From: Saprospiraceae bacterium
Lineage (GTDB): Bacteria; Bacteroidota; Bacteroidia; Chitinophagales; Saprospiraceae
Direction: 5' to 3'
NCBI GenBank assembly: GCA_020627535.1
Contig: JAHDGU010000009.1
Coordinates: forward strand, 62,001 to 126,000
DNA length: 64,000 nt
The notes beneath the pieces are model-generated. The model ran no database searches. It was not told the origin of the DNA and worked only from the letters and a program-made list of their open reading frames with translations. How positions within the stretch are numbered: position 1 is the stretch's first letter; every line of letters starts with the position of its first letter. The position numbers and the translations under genes were made by a program. This document shows, in pieces, positions 3-37,172 of this stretch.

Positions 3-197
3 AGGACTACTGTCAATGTGGAGAAGAGAGAGCAAGCATATCGAGAGTTTCAGCGTCTGGTGCATGAGCAACAGCCGGCCATATTTCTGTTCAGTCCTGT
101 CGAGCGTATCGCCTCTCAAGACGGATACAATCTTCCTGTCTCCAGTCAGAGACCCGGCTACTTCGAAAACAGCATCGTACGCAATAGCTCCCAGTAA
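3..197 (+). CDS. Peptide/nickel ABC transporter substrate-binding protein, C-terminal end (partial)
   Basis: Only the last 64 codons lie in the window; the 5' part is outside. The reading frame ends at a TAA whose last A is the first base of the next gene's ATG. The tail contains the pattern A-Y-R-E-F-Q-R-x-x-H-E-Q-Q-P followed by a hydrophobic I-F-L-F stretch, typical of the C-terminal lobe of family 5 (DppA/OppA-like) solute-binding proteins. The two following permease genes support this. It would capture oligopeptides or similar solutes outside the inner membrane. The call rests on a short tail plus context. Confidence 0.7.
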   Translation, partial: RTTVNVEKREQAYREFQRLVHEQQPAIFLFSPVERIASQDGYNLPVSSQRPGYFENSIVRNSSQ

Positions 198-1552
198 TGC
201 TCCTCTTTGTCCTCAGACGGCTCGTACGATTTGTACCCGTGCTGCTGACAGTGGCTCTTGTCCTCTTTGTGCTTTCACAGCTCCTCCCAGGCAACAGTGC
301 TGAGGACGTCTTGAGAGAGGCTGATCTAGATCCTCGACAGTCGATAGACGACGACAAGGTCTGGGCAAGCTATGAGGCTGAAGCCAAAAGGATCCTCTTG
401 GATAAGGCCAGCTTTTATCTGAGCATATCGCCTGCTGCACGAGATGAGCGCATAAGATCACTTCTTCGCCCTGGTCAGCGAGACTGGTACGAGCATTGGC
501 TACAAAAAGGTGTGAGCTTTGAGCGGATAGCCAAGATGGATCAGCTCATGTCGGATCTATTGAGCTCATGCAGTGGATCAGATTGTGTTGAGATTAGTGC
601 AGATCGCTACTTCGAGGAGATTGATGTGCTCCAAAGGCGACTCGATGTGGTAAAGGGCACTTCTGTGCTGAGGACTGCTATGAGCGAAGAGCTTCAGTCT
701 TGGTCATCCTCCGAGCTAAGACTCTGGTCTTTAAGGCCTGTACTTCGATGGCATGGGGTAGACAATAGATTTCATCATTGGGCTAGTCATCTGATCCGAG
801 GACAGCAGAGGAGTCAAAGAGACGGATCGCTCGTATGGCCCAAGGTATATCGATCCTTGGGATGGACACTCACCTTGATGATTCCCGCATTCGTCTTGAG
901 CACATTCTTGGCTATATTTTTAGCAGTGGTGCTCGTGTGGAAGCGAAGCTCGACCGCTGCTTGGATCGGAGAGATGACTCTTCAATTTTTGTATACCATT
1001 CCTATGTTTTGGGCGGGAACAATGGCTGTAGTCTTTTTGACCAGTGATCAATATGGCAGTTTTTGGCATTGGTTTCCTCTCGCCGGCTTCTTTGAGGAGT
1101 CGATCTCCAGCGGCTTTTGGTCTATCTGGCAGTTGAATTTTCACAGAATGGTCCTTCCTTATTGTTTGCTCATCTTGTTGTCAGTCTCCTATCTGACCAC
1201 GCAGTTGAAAGCCAGCATCATAGAAGAGCTAGGGAATAATTATGTCTTGACGGCAAGATCTTATGGTCTGAGCGATCTTCAGGTCATCTGGCAGGAAGCT
1301 CTGCCCAATGCTCTTTTCCCCTTTATCGCAATTACTGCCAGAAGACTCATCGCACTTTTTGGCGGCAGCCTCATCGTAGAGGTGATATTCGGTTTGCCCG
1401 GCATGGGCAAGTTGCTTTTTGATTCTACGGTAGGACGAGATTGGAATGTGGTGTTCTGTATCTGTATGCTGATGGCTCTAGTGAGCCTAGTAAGTTATCT
1501 GCTGGCGGACTTGGCTTATCGCTGGATCGATCCAAAACTATCGTGGACATGA
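197..1552 (+). CDS. ABC transporter permease, DppB/OppB type
   Basis: Inner-membrane permease of a peptide-type ABC importer, 451 residues. One N-terminal membrane helix (about residues 8-30) is followed by an unusually long soluble stretch (about 40-205) and then five more helices. The cytoplasmic EAA-like loop that docks on the ATPase is seen near residues 345-380 (A-R-S-Y-G-L...A-L-P-N-A). A typical DppB is about 310-340 residues, so the soluble insertion accounts for the extra length; large periplasmic insertions of this kind occur in Bacteroidota homologues. The ATG overlaps the stop of the binding-protein gene by one base, and its TGA overlaps the next ATG, showing tight translational coupling. 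Substrate is inferred only from family. Confidence 0.88.
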   Translation: MLLFVLRRLVRFVPVLLTVALVLFVLSQLLPGNSAEDVLREADLDPRQSIDDDKVWASYEAEAKRILLDKASFYLSISPAARDERIRSLLRPGQRDWYEHWLQKGVSFERIAKMDQLMSDLLSSCSGSDCVEISADRYFEEIDVLQRRLDVVKGTSVLRTAMSEELQSWSSSELRLWSLRPVLRWHGVDNRFHHWASHLIRGQQRSQRDGSLVWPKVYRSLGWTLTLMIPAFVLSTFLAIFLAVVLVWKRSSTAAWIGEMTLQFLYTIPMFWAGTMAVVFLTSDQYGSFWHWFPLAGFFEESISSGFWSIWQLNFHRMVLPYCLLILLSVSYLTTQLKASIIEELGNNYVLTARSYGLSDLQVIWQEALPNALFPFIAITARRLIALFGGSLIVEVIFGLPGMGKLLFDSTVGRDWNVVFCICMLMALVSLVSYLLADLAYRWIDPKLSWT

Positions 1553-2610
1553 CAGGCTCTGATCATATCGCACGAGCCATGAAGGGCTCTGTCTGGATTG
1601 GATATGCATGGCCGGTCCTATTTTCGTTCTTTGCCATACTTCTACTCCTTGGATTCCTACCCAAGCTGATATCGCCATTTGACTATGGTGAGATCTTGCT
1701 TGCAGATAGCTATCTGCCCCCTGGATCTTCAAGCATAGACAAGCTTGGTCGCCATTGGCTAGGGGCAGACGCTTTGGGTCGGGATGTACTTGCGGGTATC
1801 ATAGGTGGTGCGAGAGTCTCGCTGCTCACAGGCGTTTTCTCTGTGATCATCGCAGCAAGCGTCGGTTTTGTACTTGGTGCGCTGGCAGCACACTTTGGCG
1901 ATTCAAAGCAGATCTCCCTGCGCTATATTGTGATCGTCGCGCTGTCAGTGATAAGCTTGGGATATCTATGGGCCCATCATAATTGGTTTTTACCAGGATC
2001 AATGATAAGGCTGGTCCTCCTACTCTTGATCTTGATCCTAGCTTTGGTTTATTTGCCTTGGGCTGTGCTAGATCGAAGGATTTCGATGCCGCTAGATGCT
2101 CTTTTACTCTCCTGGTGTGAGATTTTCAGAGCGATACCTGCCTTGCTGATCCTCTTGGTGATGATTCCCATCCTCAAGATTCAGTCAAGCTATGGATTGA
2201 TACCCTTGATTGCTTTTTTCATGTGGCCAAGCTTTGCCTTATTGATGCGAAGTGAGGTCTTGCGGACCAGAGAGAAGCTTTATGTAAAGATTGCTCAGAC
2301 ACAGGGAATAGGCTGGCGGCGATTATTGAGGGTATATTATTTCAAAGCCGTAAGGAGTCGTCTGTTTGTCGCCATGTCATTTGGAGTAGCTGCAGCGATC
2401 GTACTTGAGTCGAGTCTCAGTTTTTTGGGTCTGATCGCGACGTCTTCACGGATGAGCTGGGGTGGTATGCTTGAGTCCTCTAGATCCAATCTTGAGGCCT
2501 GGTGGTTAGCATTCTTTCCAGGGATGGCCATTTTCTTGGTGTTGATCGCCCTGCATTCATTTGGTCGATGGTGGCAAGACAAATCAGCGATAAGGACAAC
2601 TTGGCTATGA
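1549..2610 (+). CDS. ABC transporter permease, DppC/OppC type
   Basis: Second inner-membrane permease, 353 residues from the ATG that overlaps the upstream TGA (ATGA). An N-terminal helix precedes the motif H-W-L-G-A-D-A-L-G-R-D near residue 65, a hallmark of OppC-type permeases. An EAA-like loop (Y-V-K-I-A-Q-T-Q-G-I-G) follows near residues 245-265. A pair of extra hydrophobic segments (about residues 125-185) lies between the first core helix and the rest and is not in E. coli DppC. An earlier in-frame start at 1441 would run deep into the preceding gene and is unlikely. No ATPase gene follows in this window, so the partner ATPases must be encoded elsewhere. Confidence 0.88.
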   Translation: MTGSDHIARAMKGSVWIGYAWPVLFSFFAILLLLGFLPKLISPFDYGEILLADSYLPPGSSSIDKLGRHWLGADALGRDVLAGIIGGARVSLLTGVFSVIIAASVGFVLGALAAHFGDSKQISLRYIVIVALSVISLGYLWAHHNWFLPGSMIRLVLLLLILILALVYLPWAVLDRRISMPLDALLLSWCEIFRAIPALLILLVMIPILKIQSSYGLIPLIAFFMWPSFALLMRSEVLRTREKLYVKIAQTQGIGWRRLLRVYYFKAVRSRLFVAMSFGVAAAIVLESSLSFLGLIATSSRMSWGGMLESSRSNLEAWWLAFFPGMAIFLVLIALHSFGRWWQDKSAIRTTWL

Positions 2611-2624
2611 CCGAGCAGACAATT

Positions 2625-2819
2625 TTACCCTGACCTCTTTTTGGTCTTCTTGGGATCAAAAAGATGTGTCTTAGTCTTTTGTTTTTTGGACTTGGTTTCC
2701 ATGGGATTTTGTGCCTGTTGATTGATTTCACAGCCGACTTTCTTGCTGCAAGAGCTAGCTGAGATGGCAATTCCGAGCAAGAAAATAAGCAGGAATCCGG
2801 CAGTTTTAGTTCTTTTCAT
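2625..2819 (-). CDS. Small lipoprotein, unknown function
   Basis: A 64-residue protein beginning with a lysine/arginine-rich start, a hydrophobic core (about residues 8-20) and a lipobox-like A-S-S-C, so it is probably lipidated and membrane anchored. The mature part is very basic, with repeated K-K and K-T motifs, and has one further cysteine. It lies convergent to the permease gene. Start chosen at the ATG just before the signal sequence; an upstream in-frame start at 2861 would place residues ahead of the signal. I recognise no family. The lipoprotein signal is the main argument that it is real. Confidence 0.55.
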   Translation of the reverse strand: MKRTKTAGFLLIFLLGIAISASSCSKKVGCEINQQAQNPMETKSKKQKTKTHLFDPKKTKKRSG

Positions 2820-2960
2820 ACGACTTAGTAACTCCTTTGACTCGAGAAAATTACTCCTCATGATGGTAATTTATCACCATAATGGGCTAAAATCCAGCAA
2901 ATTCAAGGGTTTCAGCACTTTTTTCACTTGTGATTGAGGTATATATATAAAAAACCACTA

Positions 2961-2968
2961 TACATTTG
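2961..2968 (+). promoter_or_regulatory. Bacteroidota-type -7 box upstream of HU
   Basis: TACATTTG matches TAnnTTTG exactly, about 32 bases before the HU start codon. A clear TTTG -33 box at the usual distance is not seen, although TTG triplets occur at 2928 and 2934. The surrounding DNA is strongly A+T rich. Confidence 0.45.
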
Positions 2969-2999
2969 TGGCACATTTATAAACAAAACCAAATTAGAA

Positions 3000-3272
3000 A
3001 TGAACAAAGGAGATCTTATCAGCGCCGTAGCAGATAAAGCAGGCATCACAAAGGCTCAAGCTTCAGATGCAGTCAATGCTGTATTTGATGGTGTTGCGAA
3101 CTGTATCAAATCAGGTGATAAAGCGTCTTTCATCGGTTTCGGAACTTTCTCTACTTCAATGAGAAATGCTAGAACCGGACGTAATCCACAGACTGGTACA
3201 GAAATCAAAATTCCTGCAAAGAATATGGTAAAATTCAAAGCTGGTAAAGCACTTTCAGATCACGTAAACTAA
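3000..3272 (+). CDS. HU family DNA-binding protein
   Basis: A 90-residue nucleoid protein that bends DNA non-specifically. It starts M-N-K-G-D-L and carries the typical core G-F-G-T-F near residues 45-50, followed by the beta-arm signature R-x-G-R-N-P-Q-T-G, with K-I-P-A near residue 73. Length matches the HU/IHF family exactly. Start chosen at the ATG at 3000: the frame is open upstream, but the extra residues are not HU-like and overlap the promoter. It stands alone with its own promoter-like box and terminator. Confidence 0.96.
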   Translation: MNKGDLISAVADKAGITKAQASDAVNAVFDGVANCIKSGDKASFIGFGTFSTSMRNARTGRNPQTGTEIKIPAKNMVKFKAGKALSDHVN

Positions 3273-3298
3273 GATCTGAGCTGAATAGCTTAAAGGAA

Positions 3299-3337
3299 AA
3301 AAGGGCTGTCTCTTCGTGAGGCGGCCCTTTTCTTTTT
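3299..3337 (+). terminator. Rho-independent terminator after HU
   Basis: A 14-bp stem (AAAAGGGC pairing with GCCCTTTT, extended inward with two G-T wobbles) closes a five-base TTCGT loop and is followed by CTTTTT. It lies 26 bases after the HU stop codon. Confidence 0.88.
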
Positions 3338-3415
3338 GGAGGAAACTCCATCACATAGAGAAATGTACATACGTATCTAGCTGGAGCTCAACTTGCCTAA
3401 CTACTTTTGCAAGCA

Positions 3416-4279
3416 ATGAAAGAAATCAAACAACTGCAGGATATTTCCGCACAAGTGAGGCGAGATATCATCCGGCAAGTCTATTATGCTGCGAGTGGTC
3501 ATCCTGGTGGCTCGCTAGGCTGTGCTGACTTCCTCACAGCACTCTATTTCCATGTCATGGATCACAAGACAAGCTTTGAGATGGATGCCAAAGGCGAAGA
3601 CGTGTTTTTCCTATCCAATGGCCATATCTCTCCAGTATGGTATAGTGTACTTGCACGCTCCGGTTACTTTCCTGTAGACGAGCTCGCTAGCTTCAGGAAA
3701 CTTGATTCTCGGCTGCAGGGGCACCCAGCGACTCATGAAGGTCTGCCTGGTATCAGAGTCGCATCTGGTAGTCTTGGTCAGGGTCTCTCAGTCGCCATAG
3801 GTGTGGCACTCGCCAAGAGGCTTGATCAAGATGAAAAAACCGTCTTTGCTCTCACTGGTGACGGAGAGCTGCAGGAAGGACAGATCTGGGAAGCAGCCAT
3901 GTTTGCCCCGCACTATGAACTTGATAATCTCATCGTCACAGTGGACTGGAATGGCCAGCAGATTGATGGAGCCAATGATGATGTCATGAGTCTCGGAGAT
4001 CTTGAGGCCAAGTGGAAAAGCTTTGGATGGGAGACCTATCATATGGATGGGCATGACTTCATCGACATCATTGAGACGATTAACAAAGCAAAAGCATCAA
4101 GAGGAAATGGCAAACCGAAGCTCATCCTCATGCGAACCGTCATGGGTCAAGGTGTGGACTATATGATGCATACGCATGCCTGGCATGGAAAGGCACCCAA
4201 CGAAGAGCTAGCTATCAAGGCTCTTGATCAATTGACTAGCAGCATGGATGACTATGCTGTGCCAAATGGCTCACTATGA
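3416..4279 (+). CDS. Transketolase, N-terminal subunit
   Basis: 287 residues; the thiamine-diphosphate-binding half of a two-subunit transketolase (pentose phosphate pathway and glycolaldehyde transfer). Visible are H-P-G-G-S near residue 27, the G-H-x-S-P motif near 65, and the cofactor-binding G-D-G-E-L-Q-E-G-Q-x-W-E segment near residue 140. The start is taken at the ATG at 3416; a TTG three codons upstream is also in frame. Its TGA overlaps the ATG of the C-terminal subunit, so both halves are made together. Split transketolases are common in Bacteroidota and some archaea. Confidence 0.94.
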
Positions 4280-5223
4280 CAGATATAGCAACGATTACCA
4301 AAAAAGCTACCAGAGATGGATTTGGTGCAGGTCTCCAAGTAGTAGGCCAGAAATATCCCAATGCTGTAGCACTCTGTGCTGATCTCGTCGGATCGCTCAA
4401 GATGCAAGCATTCATCAAAGACAATCCTGAGAGATTCTTTCAAGTAGGCATAGCCGAGGCCAATATGATGGGCATTGCGGCCGGACTAGCTACGGCAGGG
4501 AAGATTCCTTTCACTGGCACATTTGCCAACTTCTCTACGGGCCGAGTTTATGATCAGATCAGACAATCCATCGCCTATAGTCACAAGAATGTCAAGATCT
4601 GTGCATCTCATGCAGGATTGACCCTAGGAGAAGATGGAGCGACTCATCAGATCCTGGAGGATATTGGTATGATGAATATGCTACCAGGTATGACGGTCAT
4701 CAATCCTTGCGATTACAATCAGACCAAGGCAGCCACTGAAGCGATAGCTGAGATTGACGGCCCAGTATATCTGAGATTTGGACGGCCGTCTTGGCCAGTC
4801 TTTACGGAGGAGAGTGACTTTGTCCTAGGCAAGGCGCAGCATATACGTCAAGGCTCGGACATCACCATGATTGCTTGTGGTCATATGGTCTGGCAATGTG
4901 CGCAAGCTGCGGATCAGCTTGCGGCCGAGGGTGTCTCAGTGGATCTTCTCAATATGCATACCATCAAGCCTATCGATCGAGAAGCGGTGATGAAGTCTGC
5001 CAGTAAGACCGGTCGAGTGCTCACGGCAGAAGAGCATCAGATCAATGGAGGCCTTGGCTCGATCGTGGCACAAATCTTGGCAGAAGAGCATCCTGTGCCG
5101 ATGAGTTTTGTCGCTGTCAAGGATTCTTTTGGAGAAAGTGGTAAACCCCTGCAACTTTTGGACAAGTACGGTCTTGGAGTAGCGGATGTAGTGGCTTCCG
5201 CCAAAAAGCTACTGAAAAAATAG
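4276..5223 (+). CDS. Transketolase, C-terminal subunit
   Basis: 315 residues, the pyrimidine-binding and C-terminal domains of the split transketolase. R-F[10 protein letters not shown] near residues 55-66 includes the catalytic glutamate that activates the thiamine cofactor. A transketolase C-domain with H-x-I-K-P-I-D follows at about 225-235. It starts by ATGA overlap with the N-terminal subunit and ends four bases before the next gene. A dispersed hairpin motif lies in the final codons and encodes A-S-A-K-K. Confidence 0.94.
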
Positions 5224-5227
5224 ACTC

Positions 5228-6373
5228 ATGAGAAAGAATAGCAAATACATACACGCAGGTGTGCATCCTGATCCAAGTACAGGTGCCATCATGACACCGA
5301 TATATCAGACCAGCACTTTCGTGCAAACGGCCCCTGGCGAGCACAAGGGCTATGAATATGCCAGGACTCAAAATCCTACAAGGATTACCCTAGAGAATGC
5401 GCTTGCAGAACTTGAAGGCGGTACACATGGAATGTGTTTTGGGAGTGGAATGGCTGCTATGGACGCTGTCGTGAAGTTGCTCAAAACTGGCGATGAAGTC
5501 ATCGCAAGCAATGATCTCTACGGAGGATCTTATCGATTGCTGACCAAGATCTTTGAGCAGTTTGGTATCAAGTCGCACTTTGTCGATATGTCTGATCTGC
5601 AGAATATCAAGGAAAAGATCAATGGCAACACCAAACTGCTATGGGTAGAGACGCCGACCAATCCACTTCTCAGGCTTGTCGATATCCAAGCGCTCACTGA
5701 CCTTGCTAAGGAGAATGGCATCATTAGTTGCGTGGACAATACTTTCGCATCACCTCATCTGCAGACACCCATCGCGCTTGGAGCCGATATTGTCTTGCAC
5801 TCAGCGACCAAGTATCTTGGAGGACACTCAGATTGTGTCCTTGGTGCATTGGTGACCGCAGACGAGCATTTGGCCGAAAGGCTCTATTTCATCCAGAACT
5901 CCTGTGGTGCAGTACCTGGCCCCATGGATAGTTTCTTGGTGCTCAGAGGCATCAAGACTCTGCATGTGCGTGTAGATCGCGCTTGCGCTAATGCGATGAA
6001 GCTGGCGGAGTATCTCAAGGGGCATAAGGCAGTTGGAAGAGTATTGTATCCTGGCTTGGAGGATAATCCATATCATGCACTAGCTGTGGAGCAGATGACT
6101 GGATTTGGCGGGATGATCAGCTTTGATCTGGCCAATGATAGTCAGGAAGCTGCGCGCAAAGTACTCAGCGCCACCAAGGTCTTTGCACTTGCTGAGTCAC
6201 TAGGTGGTGTAGAGTCTCTCATCGGTCATCCGGCGTCTATGACTCATGGATCTATCCCTCGAGATGAGCGTATTGCTGCCGGTCTCATGGACAGCACAAT
6301 CAGGCTCAGTGTGGGTATCGAAGATGTCGAAGATCTCATGGAAGATCTGGATCAGGCGATCGCAGCATCGTAG
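5228..6373 (+). CDS. Cystathionine gamma-synthase or gamma-lyase, PLP dependent
   Basis: 381 residues, close to the family's usual length. The enzyme belongs to the Cys/Met metabolism PLP family, which exchanges or eliminates gamma substituents in transsulfuration. The PLP lysine is Lys195 in S-A-T-K-Y-L-G-G-H. Other family marks are Y-x-R-x-x-N-P-T near residue 45, the G-S-G-M-A-A turn near 73, and E-S-L-G-G-V-E-S-L near the C-terminus. It starts four bases after the transketolase pair, suggesting co-transcription. Sequence alone does not separate synthase (MetB) from lyase activity. Confidence 0.9.
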   Translation: MRKNSKYIHAGVHPDPSTGAIMTPIYQTSTFVQTAPGEHKGYEYARTQNPTRITLENALAELEGGTHGMCFGSGMAAMDAVVKLLKTGDEVIASNDLYGGSYRLLTKIFEQFGIKSHFVDMSDLQNIKEKINGNTKLLWVETPTNPLLRLVDIQALTDLAKENGIISCVDNTFASPHLQTPIALGADIVLHSATKYLGGHSDCVLGALVTADEHLAERLYFIQNSCGAVPGPMDSFLVLRGIKTLHVRVDRACANAMKLAEYLKGHKAVGRVLYPGLEDNPYHALAVEQMTGFGGMISFDLANDSQEAARKVLSATKVFALAESLGGVESLIGHPASMTHGSIPRDERIAAGLMDSTIRLSVGIEDVEDLMEDLDQAIAAS

Positions 6374-29940: not shown

Positions 29941-29975
29941 AAAAAAAAGACCTCGCATCTCTGCGAAGTCTTTTT
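29941..29975 (-). terminator. Displaced tRNA-Asp terminator
   Basis: On the minus strand, AAAAAGACTTCGCA-GAGA-TGCGAGGTCTTTTT forms a 14-bp stem and ends in eight T. It lies just past the left 16-bp att copy, exactly where the terminator of the original tRNA-Asp gene would have been before the element inserted. Confidence 0.82.
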
Positions 29976-29979
29976 CTAT

Positions 29980-29995
29980 GCGGTCCGGACGGGAC
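29980..29995. repeat. Left attachment site of the integrated element (tRNA-Asp 3' end copy)
   Basis: GCGGTCCGGACGGGAC is identical to the 16 bases at 36939-36954 that form the 3' end of tRNA-Asp. The match extends further as TCTA-N on the outer side with one mismatch. It is an isolated tRNA tail without the rest of the gene. Confidence 0.88.
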
Positions 29996-30065: not shown

Positions 30066-30725
30066 TTACTCTTCTGAATCATTCTGTTGACGACTCCTTT
30101 GAAGGAAATGACGTAACTCTGGCACGAACTCCTGTATATCCGCATGACTAACGGGTAGTGAGGATATTCTAGCGGTTGCTTGGAGCTCGATAGGCGTGAT
30201 CCTGCGATGAGAATCTCTAACCGTCTCGGGATCAATATCCAATGATGCACAATACCTCTCTAGGTATCCTGGCTCTGGATTAGACTCTTCTCCCCAATCT
30301 TGGTAAGACAGATAGTCTTCTTCAAGAAATCCTTTCAAGATATTCAAACAGAATCCAACACAGGTCATTCGTTCACCTAACTGATCAGCCATTTGGCCAC
30401 GATGCGTGCCGGCCAGATCGTAGTACTCTCCTGAATAGTATTGTCCGTATTGAGGTCTGGCTCTTTCCGCTATGAGTTCGGCCTGTGCAACAAAGGAAGG
30501 AATATCACCGCTGCTAACATATTCGAGTTTTGTGTAGTGCCAATGTGGATTTCGAACTGGCTCGATCAGTATTCTTGTTCCATCGAAGTGGATAACATTG
30601 ACAGTATTGCCCATCTTGTATATAAGGCCTGAATGGAGTTGGTTCTTGTATATGTACCGGATTGCAATTGCCAGAAAGTCGGGCTCTGCCGGAGCAATGT
30701 TGTATGAATGGGTAAGGGGAAACAA
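30066..30725 (-). CDS. Putative permuted papain/NlpC-like protein (element cargo)
   Basis: 219 residues. H31-S-G-L-I-Y...V-I-H-F-D-G (about 31-49) resembles the histidine box of circularly permuted NlpC/P60 and LRAT-like enzymes (H-x-G-x-x-Y...V-x-H), and T-C122-V-G-F-C-L-N could be the cysteine box. If so, it may be a hydrolase or acyltransferase. Both C122 and C126 are candidates. The start is a TTG; the frame continues without a break into the upstream gene except for one TAG, two codons earlier. The C-terminal third is charged and helical. The function is unknown and the fold call is tentative. Confidence 0.6.
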   Translation of the reverse strand: MFPLTHSYNIAPAEPDFLAIAIRYIYKNQLHSGLIYKMGNTVNVIHFDGTRILIEPVRNPHWHYTKLEYVSSGDIPSFVAQAELIAERARPQYGQYYSGEYYDLAGTHRGQMADQLGERMTCVGFCLNILKGFLEEDYLSYQDWGEESNPEPGYLERYCASLDIDPETVRDSHRRITPIELQATARISSLPVSHADIQEFVPELRHFLQRSRQQNDSEE

Positions 30726-30731
30726 CTCTGA

Positions 30732-31688
30732 CTAGACCTTGGCTATGAGCTTTTGATACGATTCAAGAAGGTTAGATCTGAGAGGACCAATACTCGGATC
30801 TTCTTTGAACGTCTTGCTCAGAACCAAGAGTGTCTTCATTTCACTTTGGTGAAAATTTGAATGATCAAAACCAACCAAGAGATACTTCAAGATCATTCTC
30901 CACTCTTCACGATCAGAGTCTACGGCACGCCTGTACATCATTTTTAACTTAGTAACTAATTCATTTTCAGCGTTGTACGACTCTAGGAAGTGTTTGATTG
31001 GTCCTACAGAATTAGATTCTAAGATTGCCTTATGTACGAGTGGAGTATTACTTTCGCTCGTCTGACTTGATTCAGAGTGCACCACCAATGATGATACATT
31101 CTCATACACTCCAACAGAATCCTGAATCTCCTTTAATTCATCTGTTGTACATGAAATCTTGACATGATTTTCAAGACCTTTATTGAAGTGGTACTCTGGA
31201 TTAGTGCCACCGATCTGATTGAGATACCCAGTTGCAACACCAACATAAGAACTATACCTCTTGTTCGGACCTCTTTTTTTGCGTATACGTTCAACCGACC
31301 TTACTTTTTCCCCGAAATCGGTCAGGCTTGAGTCAACAGTTCTATGAGAAAATCTAAACCGTCTGTGATCAGGCTTTAGCTCATTGTGTATGATCCGCAG
31401 ATTGTTAACGATCGTCACATTGTCTGATTCTGACTTGATTCCTTGATCTATTGCTCGAACGATCCCACTCATAGGAGATTGGTCAGCCTCAAGTGCTCCG
31501 GAAACAGATCCCTCCGATATAACAAAATTGAAATCATTCTGAGGATGAATAGCCTCTACTATCTCCCTCAGGGCACCAAGAACATTCAAAAATGACTTTA
31601 GGCCTTCGGAAGGTATACTTCCTAGAGTCACTGGCGCACCATTAACATGTGTCAATGCAATTTCTAATGTCTCAATTCTCTCGTCCAT
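30732..31688 (-). CDS. Unknown protein, probable partner of the NlpC-like cargo
   Basis: 318 residues, starting at the ATG giving M-D-E-R-I-E-T-L-E. The N-terminal part (about 1-100) has a beta strand, a helix (L-K-S-F-L-N-V-L-G-A-L-R-E-I-V) and V-I-S-E-G-S-V-S-G, a pattern typical of a small alpha/beta domain. The middle is basic (R-K-K-R-G-P-N-K-R near 145), and the last 90 residues look helical. It ends with a TAG and the same reading frame then continues as the downstream protein. A 167-base gap to the upstream lipoprotein gene leaves room for its own promoter. No family recognised. Confidence 0.65.
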   Translation of the reverse strand: MDERIETLEIALTHVNGAPVTLGSIPSEGLKSFLNVLGALREIVEAIHPQNDFNFVISEGSVSGALEADQSPMSGIVRAIDQGIKSESDNVTIVNNLRIIHNELKPDHRRFRFSHRTVDSSLTDFGEKVRSVERIRKKRGPNKRYSSYVGVATGYLNQIGGTNPEYHFNKGLENHVKISCTTDELKEIQDSVGVYENVSSLVVHSESSQTSESNTPLVHKAILESNSVGPIKHFLESYNAENELVTKLKMMYRRAVDSDREEWRMILKYLLVGFDHSNFHQSEMKTLLVLSKTFKEDPSIGPLRSNLLESYQKLIAKV

Positions 31689-31855
31689 AATTAGAGGATC
31701 TAGGCTAATTAACGTCAACAACTATTCCAAAACGCTCAAGCCTGGGCGAATATAACGAAGTTGCAACAAGAAAGATTCTCTTTAACACCGATTCAGCAAG
31801 CTTTTCACCCTACAAAGGGATTCTATGCTCTTAAACGCAAGTCTAGATCTGTGTC

Positions 31856-32557
31856 TTATCCACACACTATCCATCCTGCCTTTGACAATGCTAGGAACTG
31901 AGATGAACTCAGAGCCAAAGTCTTCCTCAACTCTTGTTTCTTATCCTTCAGTAGTTGCTCATAATAGGATTGATGTTTTTCGCCATATTGGGGATATTTC
32001 TTGTCTGCCAGTGAAATTGCCTCATCTTCTATATCTAGCATTGCGAAGTATGCACTGCAGAGGTCCGAGCCTTTAGATTTCAAGAGTTCATCTAATTTGA
32101 ATGCCTCCTCAACCCTCTGTTGATCGCTGTTGTGCTTTTGTATAGCTTCTAAGACCATCCTATTGGTCTGGACCTTAAGAGATTGATTCGGACCGCTATT
32201 CGAACACTTCGCGATCCAGCTAACATTTCTCCTAGCGGTTTCTCTACCTCTGAACAGCTGCATGTTGTAAAACAGACGTTTTGTAGATCTATCGAAGCCA
32301 AATGAATCCTTGCAGTGCTTATGGAGCTGTCTACATACACCATCTAGGTCTAAACTGTCTGAATACCCTTCTTTCAAGTACGCACGGATTTGGTACTTAT
32401 CGGCCGACTTTGAATTTGATATTTCTGCATTCTCTACAACGAACGGAAGAACTCGTTTTGGAAGCTTTGGCTGCGTGACATGGCCAAGAGACTCGTCTTG
32501 AGGTTTGCTGCAAGAAAAAAGTATTAACAAGAGAGGAGCCCAAATGAATCTGCTCAT
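31856..32557 (-). CDS. Element-encoded lipoprotein, unknown function
   Basis: 233 residues from the ATG giving a lipoprotein signal (M-S-R-F-I-W-A-P-L-L-L-I-L-F-S-C). The mature protein is rich in charged helices, with cysteines in V-C-R-Q-L-H-K-H-C near 75 and A-K-C-S near 120. An in-frame start 10 codons upstream would bury the signal. In temperate elements such lipoproteins can alter surface recognition or superinfection, but nothing in the sequence proves this. The 39-base gap before it suggests co-transcription with the DUF5681-like gene. Confidence 0.62.
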   Translation of the reverse strand: MSRFIWAPLLLILFSCSKPQDESLGHVTQPKLPKRVLPFVVENAEISNSKSADKYQIRAYLKEGYSDSLDLDGVCRQLHKHCKDSFGFDRSTKRLFYNMQLFRGRETARRNVSWIAKCSNSGPNQSLKVQTNRMVLEAIQKHNSDQQRVEEAFKLDELLKSKGSDLCSAYFAMLDIEDEAISLADKKYPQYGEKHQSYYEQLLKDKKQELRKTLALSSSQFLALSKAGWIVCG

Positions 32558-33083: not shown

Positions 33084-34292
33084 TTAGATTATTTGATTTA
33101 AGTTCAAGTCTTTCAATACATCGTGAGGTGTATCAATCCAATTACTTAGGTCCTCGTATTGTGCCTGACTCAATTGTACTTGCTCAGAAAGTGGAAATAA
33201 GGAATGTTGGGCCTTTTGAGCTAGTGTGAGCAATCGCTGTTTCAAGTTTGATCTAGCATTCCTCAACTTCTTTCTATCTGGATGGTCAAACTCGAGAGAG
33301 TATATCTCATCTGGATATGTGCCCTTTGGTATGTGACTTCTACTTGGTTCTTGATTGTCAGATTTCACACTATACACTATGGTGAAATCATCTAATGGAA
33401 GGCTCTTCTGCAAATCGGTTAAATCATCCCAATTGGCTGCTATAGAATCATGCAGAAGAAGCTGCATTGAATTGGTTCCTGTGCGAGAATTCAACTCTCT
33501 GAACTTCTTGTTATGATAGTAGAATCTCCCAGCTCCCTTTGCTCGATATTGCTCCCAAATCAAAGGATTGGAATACCGCTGAAGTCGCTCCCTGTGACTA
33601 TTGGTCATCTCTCCGCAAGAGATCCACTGAGGATCAATCATGATGAATTTGTCCCAAGTCTTCAGTAGGTCAGATCTGAGAATTTGATGAACCTCAGGTT
33701 GCAGCAAGTCTTCAACGTGCTGAATGCCGAGCTTAGAGTGATAAGCCGATTTTATAGACTTCTTCTCGAATCGGAGTAGGTTTGAATCCAATAGATACTG
33801 TTCTGACTTGCTATATAGCTTGATGAAGTATTGGTCACGTTCCCACTGGTAGTATCTACCCTTGTAGTCAAAGTTTTCCCTTCTCGAGTAATTGTATCCA
33901 GACCAAGTGATTACATGAGACTTTATCAAATCGCTGGGGCCCATAGGCACCTTACAATTGACTCCATACTCTAGATTCGTTACTAGTGCCTCAGAGGTTG
34001 AGATTTGTAGATGATCTACTAACCAACCAATGGTAGTGTCGAGCTGGTTGATCGAGAACATACTATGGTTTTGAGACCCCTGACCCGTGATTGCATTGTA
34101 GAGCTTATGCAATGAGCCATGCAGCTTCAAACCTCTAGAGGTGATGGTTAAGTACAAATCATGAAATCTGGAGCGAATTGGGTACTTGCTCTCTCCTGTA
34201 GCCACGCTGTATGTTCCATTCCAATCAAGGAAATCAAGAGCGAGTAGCCTGTCCTCGTCAACCGGGCTTTCAATCTTCACAAAGTCAATCAT
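33084..34292 (-). CDS. Replication initiator-like protein (gene II/X or Rep_trans type)
   Basis: 402 residues. Segments L-K-L-H-G-S-L-H-K-L-Y-N near 58, L-E-Y-G-V-N near 107 and F-I-K-L-Y-S-K-S-E-Q-Y...L-L-R-F-E-K-K near 155-177 resemble rolling-circle initiators of filamentous phages and small plasmids. A canonical HUH metal motif is not obvious, so activity is not certain. It starts 3 bases after the Xis-like gene's stop. A replication gene in an integrated element implies that the excised form can replicate. Confidence 0.6.
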   Translation of the reverse strand: MIDFVKIESPVDEDRLLALDFLDWNGTYSVATGESKYPIRSRFHDLYLTITSRGLKLHGSLHKLYNAITGQGSQNHSMFSINQLDTTIGWLVDHLQISTSEALVTNLEYGVNCKVPMGPSDLIKSHVITWSGYNYSRRENFDYKGRYYQWERDQYFIKLYSKSEQYLLDSNLLRFEKKSIKSAYHSKLGIQHVEDLLQPEVHQILRSDLLKTWDKFIMIDPQWISCGEMTNSHRERLQRYSNPLIWEQYRAKGAGRFYYHNKKFRELNSRTGTNSMQLLLHDSIAANWDDLTDLQKSLPLDDFTIVYSVKSDNQEPSRSHIPKGTYPDEIYSLEFDHPDRKKLRNARSNLKQRLLTLAQKAQHSLFPLSEQVQLSQAQYEDLSNWIDTPHDVLKDLNLNQII

Positions 34293-34295
34293 TGC

Positions 34296-34568
34296 CTAGT
34301 ACTCTAGCTTGATTGGGGCCTTGAGTACTTCAACCCTCTTGTATAGGACTCTTCGACCTATACGATACTTCGTCAAGATACCTTGTTTCGCCCATGCGCT
34401 TACAGTCATTAGAGTTACCTTGAAGTGGTCGGCAACTTCTTGGGCGGTCCAGTACTTGTGATCTTGATAGTGATTCTCTCTATCTTGAGAGATTGCGTCT
34501 TCGATGCTACTCTGAATGGTTGCGAGTAACTCAGCCTTGCTAAGGGGAATGATTGTCATATTCTCCAT
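34296..34568 (-). CDS. Excisionase/AlpA-like HTH protein
   Basis: 90 residues with a MerR-type winged helix in the last 50 (Y-W-T-A-Q-E-V-A-D-H-F-K-V...T-V-S-A-W-A-K-Q-G-I-L...R-I-G-R-R-V-L-Y-K-R). Such proteins act as excisionases or activators of element genes. A second in-frame ATG follows at codon 4. It is preceded by a double operator-like palindrome at 34601-34626. Confidence 0.78.
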   Translation of the reverse strand: MENMTIIPLSKAELLATIQSSIEDAISQDRENHYQDHKYWTAQEVADHFKVTLMTVSAWAKQGILTKYRIGRRVLYKRVEVLKAPIKLEY

Positions 34569-34600
34569 GTCGGAATTTTTAGTTCAGACACAAAGAGATG

Positions 34601-34626
34601 TTAGTCTTTACTTAGTCTTAGACTAA
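34601..34626. promoter_or_regulatory. Operator-like repeats before the Xis-Rep unit
   Basis: TTAGTCTT at 34601 recurs at 34612, where it belongs to the perfect 15-bp palindrome TTAGTCTTAGACTAA (34612-34626). The 11-base offset is one helical turn. The site lies in the only gap of this half of the element, so it is the natural control point for excision and replication genes. Confidence 0.6.
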
Positions 34627-34632
34627 TTTCAA

Positions 34633-35367
34633 TCAATCAGACATATCTAAGCCTATTTCTGAGAGTGTGGCTTCAAAATGTGCACTGGTACTAGGGAGTC
34701 GACCATTCTTCAGTTTGTTAATGTACCCTTGAATGATTTGAGGTTCGCTCTTCTCAACCAGTCCAAACCGTACCAAGGCAATTGCGAACTTGTTTTCTGA
34801 AATATTCTTCTCTTCAAGTAGTTTGAAAATTCCCAATCTTATAAAGAGTCTGATCCGATCAGGATCCTTTAACGAGCTGTTTGCTCCCAATGCTTCTGCA
34901 TTATCCCCAAGTTGAATTTCGTTTTTAGCTTTTTCGTACTCAAACTCCTTCGATCTTGTCTTGAGCTGATCTATTGTAGTTCTCAAGACTTCCAAATACA
35001 TCCCTTCACCCTTCTTAACCGCACTCAACGGCATCCCTTCCCAAGTTTTGGTTGTCTTAATCCTAAGGAGTAATATCTCAAGATCAGTCGGACTAATCTT
35101 CTGTATTTCCTCATACGTAAGTGCAGAAAGGTAGAGTAATTGATCTTCCGTTGAATCTTCTGAGTCAAATACTTCAAGTACCTGAGGATGGACAGTTGGT
35201 CGTATGTGGTCAGTGAAAGACAAACCATGTTGATCCCAGTCAATGTGATAACATTTTTTTATTGATCTGACCAAAAAAATTATACCTGAAGCACTCTTCC
35301 ACACATCCTCTTCAAATAGTTCATCTTCGAGTTCTGGTCCGTAGTAGTCTTCTTGCTCAATATCCAT
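34633..35367 (-). CDS. Element regulator-like protein, unknown
   Basis: 244 residues from the ATG two bases after the integrase stop. The N-terminal 30 residues are very acidic. The last 80 (about 165-235) have a helix-loop-helix arrangement reminiscent of a phage repressor-like HTH (N-K-F-A-I-A-L-V-R-F-G-L...I-I-Q-G-Y-I-N-K-L-K-N-G). The middle is helical with K-A-K-N-E-I-Q. It could be the element's immunity repressor, but I do not recognise a named family. An alternative TTG start overlaps the integrase by 8 bases. Confidence 0.62.
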   Translation of the reverse strand: MDIEQEDYYGPELEDELFEEDVWKSASGIIFLVRSIKKCYHIDWDQHGLSFTDHIRPTVHPQVLEVFDSEDSTEDQLLYLSALTYEEIQKISPTDLEILLLRIKTTKTWEGMPLSAVKKGEGMYLEVLRTTIDQLKTRSKEFEYEKAKNEIQLGDNAEALGANSSLKDPDRIRLFIRLGIFKLLEEKNISENKFAIALVRFGLVEKSEPQIIQGYINKLKNGRLPSTSAHFEATLSEIGLDMSD

Positions 35368-35368
35368 A

Positions 35369-36757
35369 TCATGCAATCTTTAGATGGCCTGCGCCTTTGA
35401 AGAAATCTGATTGCTCAATCCTCTTGATAGAATCGAGCTGATCAATGAGGATGTACTTCTGGAACGAGTCCAGTTTCTTATGTGCTGTCAGCTTCATGAT
35501 GTCATACGCAGGGATGCCCGCTAAGTACATATTGGTCGCGCCTGTTCGTCGTGCTGTGTGTGTGGTCATGAGTTCATACTTTGGCTTTGACTTGATGACG
35601 GTTTGACCCTTAGAGGTTTCATTGACTTGGACCATGCCGTCGATACCTGCGAGCTGGCATACTTCTTTGATATACTTATTCAATTTCTGAGGGCTCAGCT
35701 CGGGAATAGAGTAGTCGTGTCTCTCTAATATGGTCCTTAGCTCTGGCCTGATTGGTATCTTGACTTTGTACTTGGTTTTCTGATTGATCATTTCGATGTA
35801 CTCGCCCTTGATATGGTGCGGCCTGATCCTTGAGTAATCTGAGTGTCTGAGAGCAGTGTAGCAACCACATAGGAATATGTCTCTGGCCTTGGATAGGTGA
35901 GCTGGCATGTCATCCAATTCAAACAATACTCTTACCTCTGTCCGAGTAAGTGCTACATGAGTAGACTGAGACTTTGGCTTCTTGATCTTATCCAAAGATG
36001 AAAGTATTCGCCTGACCTCGATGTCCTTGATCAATGGCTCTTCATCTTTCTTGATGAGTTTGTAGTTCTGATCTTGAATACCTGATAGGAATTCTCTCAC
36101 CACTCTTTTGAGATGCTGTATGCAGCGACCGGCATAGGCTGGTTTCACATTTCTCTCTGAGTATAGGTATTGAAGCCAATCCTCTATCATTTCCCTACTT
36201 ACATCTTCAATCATGAGTTGGCGCGAGGAATGATCCTGGAATTTGTCAAGAGCCTCTTTGGTGGTCATGTAGGCCTTCACTGTGCTGTAGTTGTACCGAG
36301 AGCCGCTATCGGTCAGTATCTTGCCTCTGCCAGCTCTGAAGATAAAGTCTGTGAAGATCTCACTGAGCTTGAAGTCTTTTCGCTTTTCCTTCTTTTGCTC
36401 AGGTCGTGCAGTTTTGATCTTGGAGTCGAGGTATTCCTTCCAGTCTTTCTTTTTAGGTGTGGTCATGCTCATATCGGCCAGTCCAAACCATTCGTCCGAT
36501 AGAGTTACGATCTTCTTGAGCCTTGCCCTGATATTCTTGAGTTGAGTATCGAGCTGAGGAATTGACTTCGAGTACTCAGAGATGAGCTTTCGCGACTTTG
36601 TGGGTTCTTGACTATCTGGATTCCATAGAGAAGGGATAATCTGGCATCCTGTACCATATAGCCACCTCTGGCCCTGATGATAGAAGAGTAGCCTGATGGA
36701 TGTCGCACCTGTGGCAGACGCCTCCTTCAGACGAAACTGATAGTTCCGCTGGTTCAT
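35369..36757 (-). CDS. Tyrosine recombinase (integrase)
   Basis: 462 residues. An N-terminal Arm/SAM-like region is followed by a catalytic domain with the first arginine in Y-T-A-L-R-H-S-D near residue 300, H-T-A-R-R-T near 395, T-A-H-K-K near 418 and the nucleophilic tyrosine in S-F-Q-K-Y-I near 430. The final H of the usual H-x-x-R is in place. It is adjacent to the tRNA-Asp attachment site, as expected for a site-specific integrase of this element. The upstream region has paired repeats and palindromes that could be arm sites. Confidence 0.93.
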   Translation of the reverse strand: MNQRNYQFRLKEASATGATSIRLLFYHQGQRWLYGTGCQIIPSLWNPDSQEPTKSRKLISEYSKSIPQLDTQLKNIRARLKKIVTLSDEWFGLADMSMTTPKKKDWKEYLDSKIKTARPEQKKEKRKDFKLSEIFTDFIFRAGRGKILTDSGSRYNYSTVKAYMTTKEALDKFQDHSSRQLMIEDVSREMIEDWLQYLYSERNVKPAYAGRCIQHLKRVVREFLSGIQDQNYKLIKKDEEPLIKDIEVRRILSSLDKIKKPKSQSTHVALTRTEVRVLFELDDMPAHLSKARDIFLCGCYTALRHSDYSRIRPHHIKGEYIEMINQKTKYKVKIPIRPELRTILERHDYSIPELSPQKLNKYIKEVCQLAGIDGMVQVNETSKGQTVIKSKPKYELMTTHTARRTGATNMYLAGIPAYDIMKLTAHKKLDSFQKYILIDQLDSIKRIEQSDFFKGAGHLKIA

Positions 36758-36898: not shown

Positions 36899-36936
36899 AA
36901 AAAAAGAGCCAATTCCAAATCAATGAAATCGGCTCT
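36899..36936 (-). terminator. Element-borne terminator now serving tRNA-Asp
   Basis: On the minus strand, a 12-bp stem with two wobbles (AGAGCC... / ...GGCTCT) and a run of seven T lies four bases after the tRNA 3' end. Its sequence is unrelated to the terminator left behind at 29941. Confidence 0.82.
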
Positions 36937-36938
36937 AA

Positions 36939-36954
36939 GCGGTCCGGACGGGAC
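36939..36954. repeat. Right attachment site (within tRNA-Asp 3' end)
   Basis: Same 16 bases as 29980-29995. Because the copy is exact, the tRNA remains intact after integration. Confidence 0.88.
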
Positions 36955-37013
36955 TCGAACCCGCGACCTCCTGCGTGACAGGCAGGCATTCTAACCAACT
37001 GAACTACCGGACC
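36940..37013 (-). tRNA. tRNA-Asp (anticodon GTC)
   Basis: 74 bases. Acceptor stem GGTCCGG/CCGGACC with discriminator G, D-loop with AGTTGGTTAGA, anticodon loop CTGTCAC, T-arm GGTTCGAGTCC. No CCA encoded. It is the integration target of the adjacent element. Confidence 0.97.
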
Positions 37014-37172
37014 TGGTATCTTCATACCTCGCTACCTGAGCAGCGCGTGCAAATATAGTACAGTGAGACAATTCACAAAAAATATTTTTGTCTCAGCTCG
37101 TCTAGCTCGACACCTAGTCCTGTGACTACTTTGAAGCTCTTCTGACAATTTCTCATGGTCAATAATTTACTT
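37014..37172. other. tRNA-Asp upstream region, no gene seen
   Basis: Minus-strand promoter DNA of tRNA-Asp is expected here. No convincing gene is present on either strand; the stretch is A+T rich near 37070-37090. Confidence 0.3.

Follow-up and report, generated by a model that had tools for sequence, protein, structure and literature searches.

A mobile two-gene module pairing a predicted permuted papain-like enzyme with an OB-fold partner, carried by a tRNA-Asp element of a Saprospiraceae bacterium

What function is served by the two genes that a small integrative element of a Saprospiraceae bacterium carries as its last cargo? The window, by which we mean the whole 64,000-nt stretch of DNA analysed here (assembly GCA_020627535.1, contig JAHDGU010000009.1, positions 62,001 to 126,000), had been noted in a preliminary description to encode, at the far end of such an element, proteins of 318 and 219 residues, the second of which displays a histidine box and a later cysteine box. 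Both open reading frames are present; their products are referred to below as the partner and the enzyme, respectively (Table 1). The partner frame stays open up to a TTG at 31721 (30732-31721, minus strand; 329 aa), but because homologues begin at the internal ATG at 31688, that codon was retained as the start, yielding 318 residues.

Table 1. Coordinates, within the window, of the pair, of its predicted domains and catalytic residues, and of the element carrying it.
Feature	Position	Strand	Remarks
Intrinsic terminator 3′ of the pair, distal element end	29942-29977	-	16-pair stem plus T tail
Distal att repeat, copy of tRNA-Asp 3′ end	29975-29995	.	21 nt, 20/21 identical to 36934-36954
Enzyme (effector), 219 aa, predicted permuted papain-like (NlpC/P60, LRAT-like)	30066-30725	-	TTG start, on which homologues agree; AlphaFold
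C122, predicted nucleophile	30360-30362	-	Invariant 10/10 in MTC(V/S)GFC; helix N-terminus (DSSP helix 122-133)
H46, predicted third triad residue	30588-30590	-	Invariant 10/10; end of strand 3; 15 residues past H31
H31, predicted catalytic histidine	30633-30635	-	Invariant 10/10; start of strand 2 (DSSP strand 29-38)
Partner, putative three-domain regulator/sensor, 318 aa	30732-31688	-	ATG at 31688; directly upstream of the enzyme at ten loci
Partner C-terminal helical domain, residues 226-318	30732-31013	-	Five helices (model); found only with papain-like enzyme
Partner OB-fold domain, residues 144-225	31014-31259	-	Signature G-x5-G-G...N-x-H (model)
Partner N-terminal alpha/beta domain, residues 1-143	31260-31688	-	Invariant G60-S61 (model); homologous to PIN-associated proteins
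402-aa conserved protein, element backbone	33084-34292	-	
HTH_17 excisionase-like protein, element backbone	34296-34568	-	
Tyrosine integrase, adjoining tRNA-Asp	35369-36757	-	Pfam Phage_integrase 8.4e-8, Arm-DNA-bind_5, Phage_int_SAM_5
Proximal att repeat inside tRNA-Asp 3′ end	36934-36954	.	Direct repeat, 21 nt
tRNA-Asp	36939-37013	-	

The element measures 6.96 kb and is integrated at tRNA-Asp. The distal 21-nt repeat on the side of the pair, with the integrase and tRNA-Asp at the opposite end, places the two genes where the preliminary description had put them. A sister genome (G001, contig C285) was considered as an empty site and rejected, because its tRNA-Asp is encoded by the opposite strand and coincides with a contig end; the ends of the element are thus defined by the direct repeats alone. 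In that genome (loci L069, L070 and L076), this tRNA-Asp has as its neighbour the gene orthologous to that for the window's 1130-aa protein, and the tRNA 3′ end is where the contig stops, an arrangement suggestive of a rearrangement or of another insertion at the tRNA-Asp site. Sibling elements from other genomes, located near tRNA-Cys (L066) and tRNA-Glu (L067), encode the 402-aa protein and follow the gene order of the window (integrase, second gene, small HTH-type gene, 402-aa-type protein). Since they share the backbone but not the pair, the pair is cargo. A small family of tRNA-linked elements with differing cargo is thereby delineated (window, 33084-36757; L066, 7544-11310; L067, 4934-8775). 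The 402-aa protein, for which no family match was found, may be a replication initiator, and no packaging or capsid-redirecting gene, as sought for a phage satellite of PICI/P4-like type, was recognised in the element, where the integrase, the HTH protein and the 402-aa protein are present. The promoter-sized gap announced ahead of the pair does exist, the upstream gene stopping at 31856 and leaving 167 nt before the partner ATG, but neither a sigma-70-like site nor an exact Bacteroidetes-type TTTG/TAnnTTTG site was found in it; the gap may still hold a promoter. Within the window, a single exact match to the Bacteroidetes-type pattern occurs, at 37050-37079 (minus strand), just 5′ of tRNA-Asp, about one being expected by chance.

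No family or model from Pfam, NCBIfam, PHROGs or PADLOC (PADLOC-DB 2023) covers the enzyme or the partner, and searches of PDB sequences with the window proteins and the family alignments returned no relevant match. In the window copy, the two boxes of the enzyme read H31-S-G-L-I-Y...V-I-H46-F and M-T-C122-V-G-F-C, as originally described, and H31 and C122 are kept in every homologue. An active-site tyrosine ahead of the cysteine was also looked for, and Y97 and Y102 proved nearly invariant in the sequence alignment of homologues. The AlphaFold model of the enzyme (pTM 0.80, pLDDT 78.5, 7-row alignment) is made of four strands, a long helix, a helix beginning at C122 and a helical tail. Foldseek alone yielded no significant match for the model of either protein (best E 0.2 and 0.0075; the enzyme was searched against PDB and BFVD). 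VIA-align ranked at the top 3KW0, a cysteine peptidase from B. cereus (Z 8.2, 129 residues, 4.0 A), then YiiX, 2IF6 (Z 7.4, 151 residues), Aichivirus 2A (Z 6.4), PPPDE1 (5.9), the RID domain of MARTX (5.4) and parechovirus 2A (4.2); these leading matches are papain-like and His-first and, parechovirus 2A relatives excepted, stand well above the first unrelated one (Z 3.3), although the fold call draws on the re-scoring of a single model of medium confidence, with a top Z (near 8) that is no more than moderate. With best structural matches of this type, a permuted papain/NlpC-P60 fold of the enzyme is supported at the level of the predicted model, in agreement with the preliminary description.

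The conserved residues are arranged as they are in permuted papain-like enzymes, with a histidine preceding the cysteine, a polar third residue and, in the predicted model, strands first and the cysteine-bearing helix later. YaeF/YiiX (C92), LRAT/HRASLS and PPPDE (C97) share with the enzyme this His-before-Cys order, the histidine at the start of a strand and the cysteine at the start of a helix. Whereas the third residue is a glutamate in YiiX-type proteins, it is a histidine in the window enzyme; LRAT-like enzymes with a histidine in third position are represented by HRASLS (H23/H35/C113). The 15 residues separating H31 from the third residue equal the spacing of H49 and E64 in the C154/H49/E64 triad of BcPPNE (PMC3142127). 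Besides lacking any Pfam, NCBIfam or PDB sequence match, the enzyme is set apart from permuted NlpC/P60 enzymes by its MTC(V/S)GFC and RRI-P motifs and by its constant partner gene. One homologue (L021, 1166-1798) weakly matched Pox_F15 of Pfam (E 0.003, below the cut-off), probably by chance. Neither the enzyme nor the partner begins like an exported protein, and a wall hydrolase is disfavoured by this want of a visible export signal and by the permuted type of the enzyme. Permuted NlpC/P60 enzymes tend to act on substrates of lipid or acyl nature, and Tox-Act1, a T6SS toxin of this class that requires its histidine and cysteine, is a toxic phospholipase (PMC12994826), which makes an attack on membrane lipids or acylated proteins the most likely chemistry. 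By analogy with these relatives, we infer that the enzyme is catalytic and that its substrate is a lipid or an acyl group.

The AlphaFold model of the partner (pLDDT 86.5) resolves into three domains whose relative placement is uncertain in view of a pTM of 0.54. The OB-fold domain matched the SSB Rim1 (Z 9.8), RuvA (8.8) and, at about 8, PriB and several other SSBs; domains of this fold can have nucleic acids but also proteins as ligands. When 26 regulators were aligned, neither G-S nor G-x5-G-G varied, and the N and H of N-x-H were each found in 25, the window partner being the one with E165 in place of the N. Matches to SAKe amounted to a short GG-rich repeat and were dismissed as not relevant. 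Weak similarity of the helical domain to the PADLOC model PDC-S17 was seen in two of the ten members (best E 1.9e-4). In 120 genomes of the family, this domain occurred only in the four that carry the papain-like enzyme, once in each, and the partner at one locus (L007) has kept it while losing both the alpha/beta and OB-fold domains. The partner on one phage contig (L025, 4686-5921) bears about 105 extra N-terminal residues with a cysteine cluster (CICGNP...CGSQAC) resembling a zinc-binding module.

The preliminary description had raised the prospect of the two genes recurring as a unit, and they were indeed together at every locus found. These number ten (the window, L005, L006, L007, L011/L047, L021, L023 and phage contigs L025-L027), the nine besides the window being distributed between other bacterial genomes (six) and tailed-phage contigs (three). 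The enzyme was found in 4 of 298 genomes of relatives, the window's own included, and also in one further member of the order, in Tenacibaculum dicentrarchi, in Leeuwenhoekiella nanhaiensis and in the three phage contigs; a viral scan with an enlarged enzyme alignment retrieved only the same three contigs. No match came from tblastn searches in which a homologous enzyme was run against collections of plasmids and phages, and its partner against plasmids. At all ten loci, the partner lies directly upstream of the enzyme on the same strand, with a spacing of -11 to +19 nt. When strong matches (E below 1e-20) were sought in 396 genomes of the order, those to the enzyme and to the partner fell in the same four genomes. 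Given that both proteins have homologues in phages and in other genera, encoded side by side every time and with H31, H46 and C122 invariant, the pair is not a product of chance, and the reading of the two genes as coincidental neighbours was rejected on the strength of this co-occurrence.

The surroundings of the pair associate it with defence at about half of the loci, those of L005 and L021 being cut by contig ends. L006 contains a TerY-type triad (TerY_C 6e-44, PP2C_2 1e-29, Pkinase 4e-10), spanning 139-5890 and made up of a TerY_C vWA protein, a PP2C and a kinase with a C-terminal cysteine cluster; here the pair is inserted so as to separate the PP2C gene from that of the kinase. TerY-P, the system formed by a vWA protein, a PP2C and a kinase, protects against T7-like phages (PMC7699616, PMC11090510); genes for these three proteins are missing from the window element. 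In L007, the pair follows a STAND-like NTPase gene and a DUF4365/PDC-M02A gene, and in L047 it adjoins an integrase gene. On the tailed-phage contigs, it is found near tail-tube or tape-measure genes, with an integrase in one case, and these copies may serve the phage. In L023, the pair stands alone between Era-like and methyltransferase-like genes (named by eye), in apparent housekeeping surroundings.

The first 200 or so residues of the partner are homologous to a set of 258-aa proteins from Bacteroidia (HHalign 97.6%, E 3e-12 for that one comparison, about residues 3-200). A profile search of the order recovered the true partners and, in G093, G209, G221 and G300, 258-aa proteins each followed by a PIN-type gene; weak matches in G384 and G465 looked like chance, the G465 locus having been inspected. 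The PIN gene matched PF01850 at 6e-9 in L042 and fell just under the cut-off in L043 and L045; it is broken in L044. The 258-aa type occurs in 15 of 247 Bacteroidia genomes, in 13 of which a PIN homologue follows, and the combination was also found at four further loci and on a Bordetella plasmid. The two genes mostly overlap, typically by 8-17 nt. Operons of this kind, with an alpha/beta plus OB-like regulator and a PIN gene, were seen in L042 (5727-6987), L043 (6685-7924), L045 (6614-7853), L048-L057, L059-L061 and L068 (3290-4591); no Pfam, NCBIfam or PADLOC model recognises the 258-aa protein, and the operon may represent a toxin-antitoxin or defence family that has no name as yet. An apparent frameshift splits the PIN gene beside an intact upstream regulator in L044 (5911-6409), L052 (2273-2756) and L054 (2322-2754), which fits the PIN protein being a toxin, although these frameshifts may have arisen in the assembly. 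None of the PIN-type regulators showed the helical domain. As judged from sequence homology, members of a single regulator family are coupled either to a PIN nuclease or to a papain-like enzyme, two effectors unrelated to each other, and it is the papain-like enzyme that the helical domain tracks.

These operons (L042-L061 and L068) are of VapBC type and share with the window pair the N-terminal 200 or so residues of the regulator, the gene order and the overlap. They differ from it in their effector, which is PIN rather than papain-like, and in the helical domain that the window partner has in addition; moreover, the 258-aa regulator belongs to no recognised VapB family. The PIN toxin that defines VapBC was found only in these related operons, the window effector having no PIN match and a papain-like model. 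DS-5, a two-protein PIN defence system in which both proteins are needed and which is not a toxin-antitoxin system (PMC13092281), is likewise a unit of effector and partner, comparable to the window pair by description and by the PIN of the related type, but its partner is DUF5830/AcrIF4-like and no relationship to the window partner was seen. Tox-Act1 and TseH, to which the enzyme is likened by description, exemplify the use of a permuted NlpC/P60 core as an antibacterial weapon (PMC12994826); they are secreted and countered by membrane-associated immunity proteins, whereas in the window pair no marker of secretion is seen and the OB-fold partner looks cytoplasmic. The literature searched contained no description of a permuted NlpC/P60 anti-phage system or of an OB-fold/PIN pair, which is not proof of novelty.

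Collectively, the architecture of the pair, its mobility, its defence-like neighbours and the loss of PIN genes beside intact regulators lead us to favour a toxin/antitoxin-like, probably abortive-infection, module in which the partner would restrain the enzyme and free it upon a phage-linked cue, a reading to which we assign a probability of about 45%. The gene order is that of type II toxin-antitoxin systems, with adjacent, co-directional and coupled genes and the regulator upstream at all ten loci. In this scheme, the pair would be translationally coupled and mobile. The enzyme would be a cytoplasmic cysteine enzyme relying on a C122-H31-H46 triad, and probably one that hydrolyses or transfers acyl groups, with membrane phospholipids or acylated proteins as its substrates. 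The partner would dock onto it through the C-terminal helical domain and hold it off, its alpha/beta and OB-fold part sensing a cue, most likely nucleic acid from phage infection; release or activation of the enzyme would then stop the growth of the infected cell or lyse it before phage are produced. We infer that the partner inhibits the enzyme and docks onto it by its helical domain, that the cue is a nucleic acid, that phage infection is the trigger and that the pair serves in defence. Of the defence or toxin-immunity role proposed in the preliminary description, a defence or toxin-antitoxin function is favoured by the TerY-P, STAND/DUF4365, phage and integrase contexts and by the PIN swap, while secreted toxin-immunity finds no support, neither protein having an exported-type start.

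An addiction module without dedicated phage sensing, in which a toxin-antitoxin pair would simply stabilise integrative elements and prophages, would account for two overlapping or nearly overlapping genes with the regulator first, for their carriage by elements and phages, and for the pairing of the regulator family with VapC-like PIN proteins, once on a plasmid. We nonetheless consider it unlikely: with its OB-fold and a size exceeding that of the effector, the partner does not resemble a small DNA-binding antitoxin, one of the copies sits inside a TerY-type triad and some chromosomal copies, such as L023, look stand-alone. Somewhat less plausible still is that the partner activates or targets the enzyme, which would cleave a phage or host protein as a peptidase or PPPDE-like deconjugase and not a lipid, such that removal of the partner would be non-toxic. 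PPPDE1 is among the structural matches, DS-5 needs both of its proteins (PMC13092281) and, wherever the enzyme occurs, the helical domain has been retained; yet the relatives of LRAT and YiiX type speak for a lipid or acyl substrate (PMC3142127, PMC12994826), and broken PIN genes next to intact regulators resemble the decay of a toxin beside its antitoxin. That three of the ten copies lie near tail genes on tailed-phage contigs is consistent with counter-defence or superinfection exclusion, the pair modifying host targets and protecting the resident element or phage, but the chromosomal copies in TerY-type and STAND/DUF4365 neighbourhoods fit host defence better, rendering this explanation very improbable. 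An everyday role in cell-wall or lipid metabolism, the enzyme being assisted by an accessory protein and having no part in conflict, for which the sharing of its fold with housekeeping enzymes and the plain chromosomal copy in L023 might speak, is the least credible of all, considering the rare and patchy distribution (4/298 relatives), the mobile contexts, the lack of a visible export signal and a partner whose regulator family drives a PIN nuclease as well.

The pair is thus probably a self-harm or anti-phage module with an exchangeable weapon. Tentatively, and falling short of even odds, the widespread regulator family (G-S alpha/beta plus OB-fold) might constitute a plug-in sensor or antitoxin for chemically unrelated effectors, a new effector-swappable class of immunity or toxin-antitoxin systems that senses infection-linked nucleic acid. 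The effectors so served could be, with as much reserve, a PIN ribonuclease in many Bacteroidia and on at least one Bordetella plasmid, and an LRAT-like acyl enzyme with an added helical docking domain in the window and in phages. A fold whose best-known enzymes act in lipid metabolism and wall hydrolysis is now tied to a mobile, phage-borne two-gene module, and the partner in this module comes from an unnamed family of regulators to which VapC-like nucleases are coupled as well. What the OB-fold regulator senses, and how one regulator drives two unrelated weapons, are questions opened to direct testing, for which the many PIN-type operons in other genera provide material for comparison.
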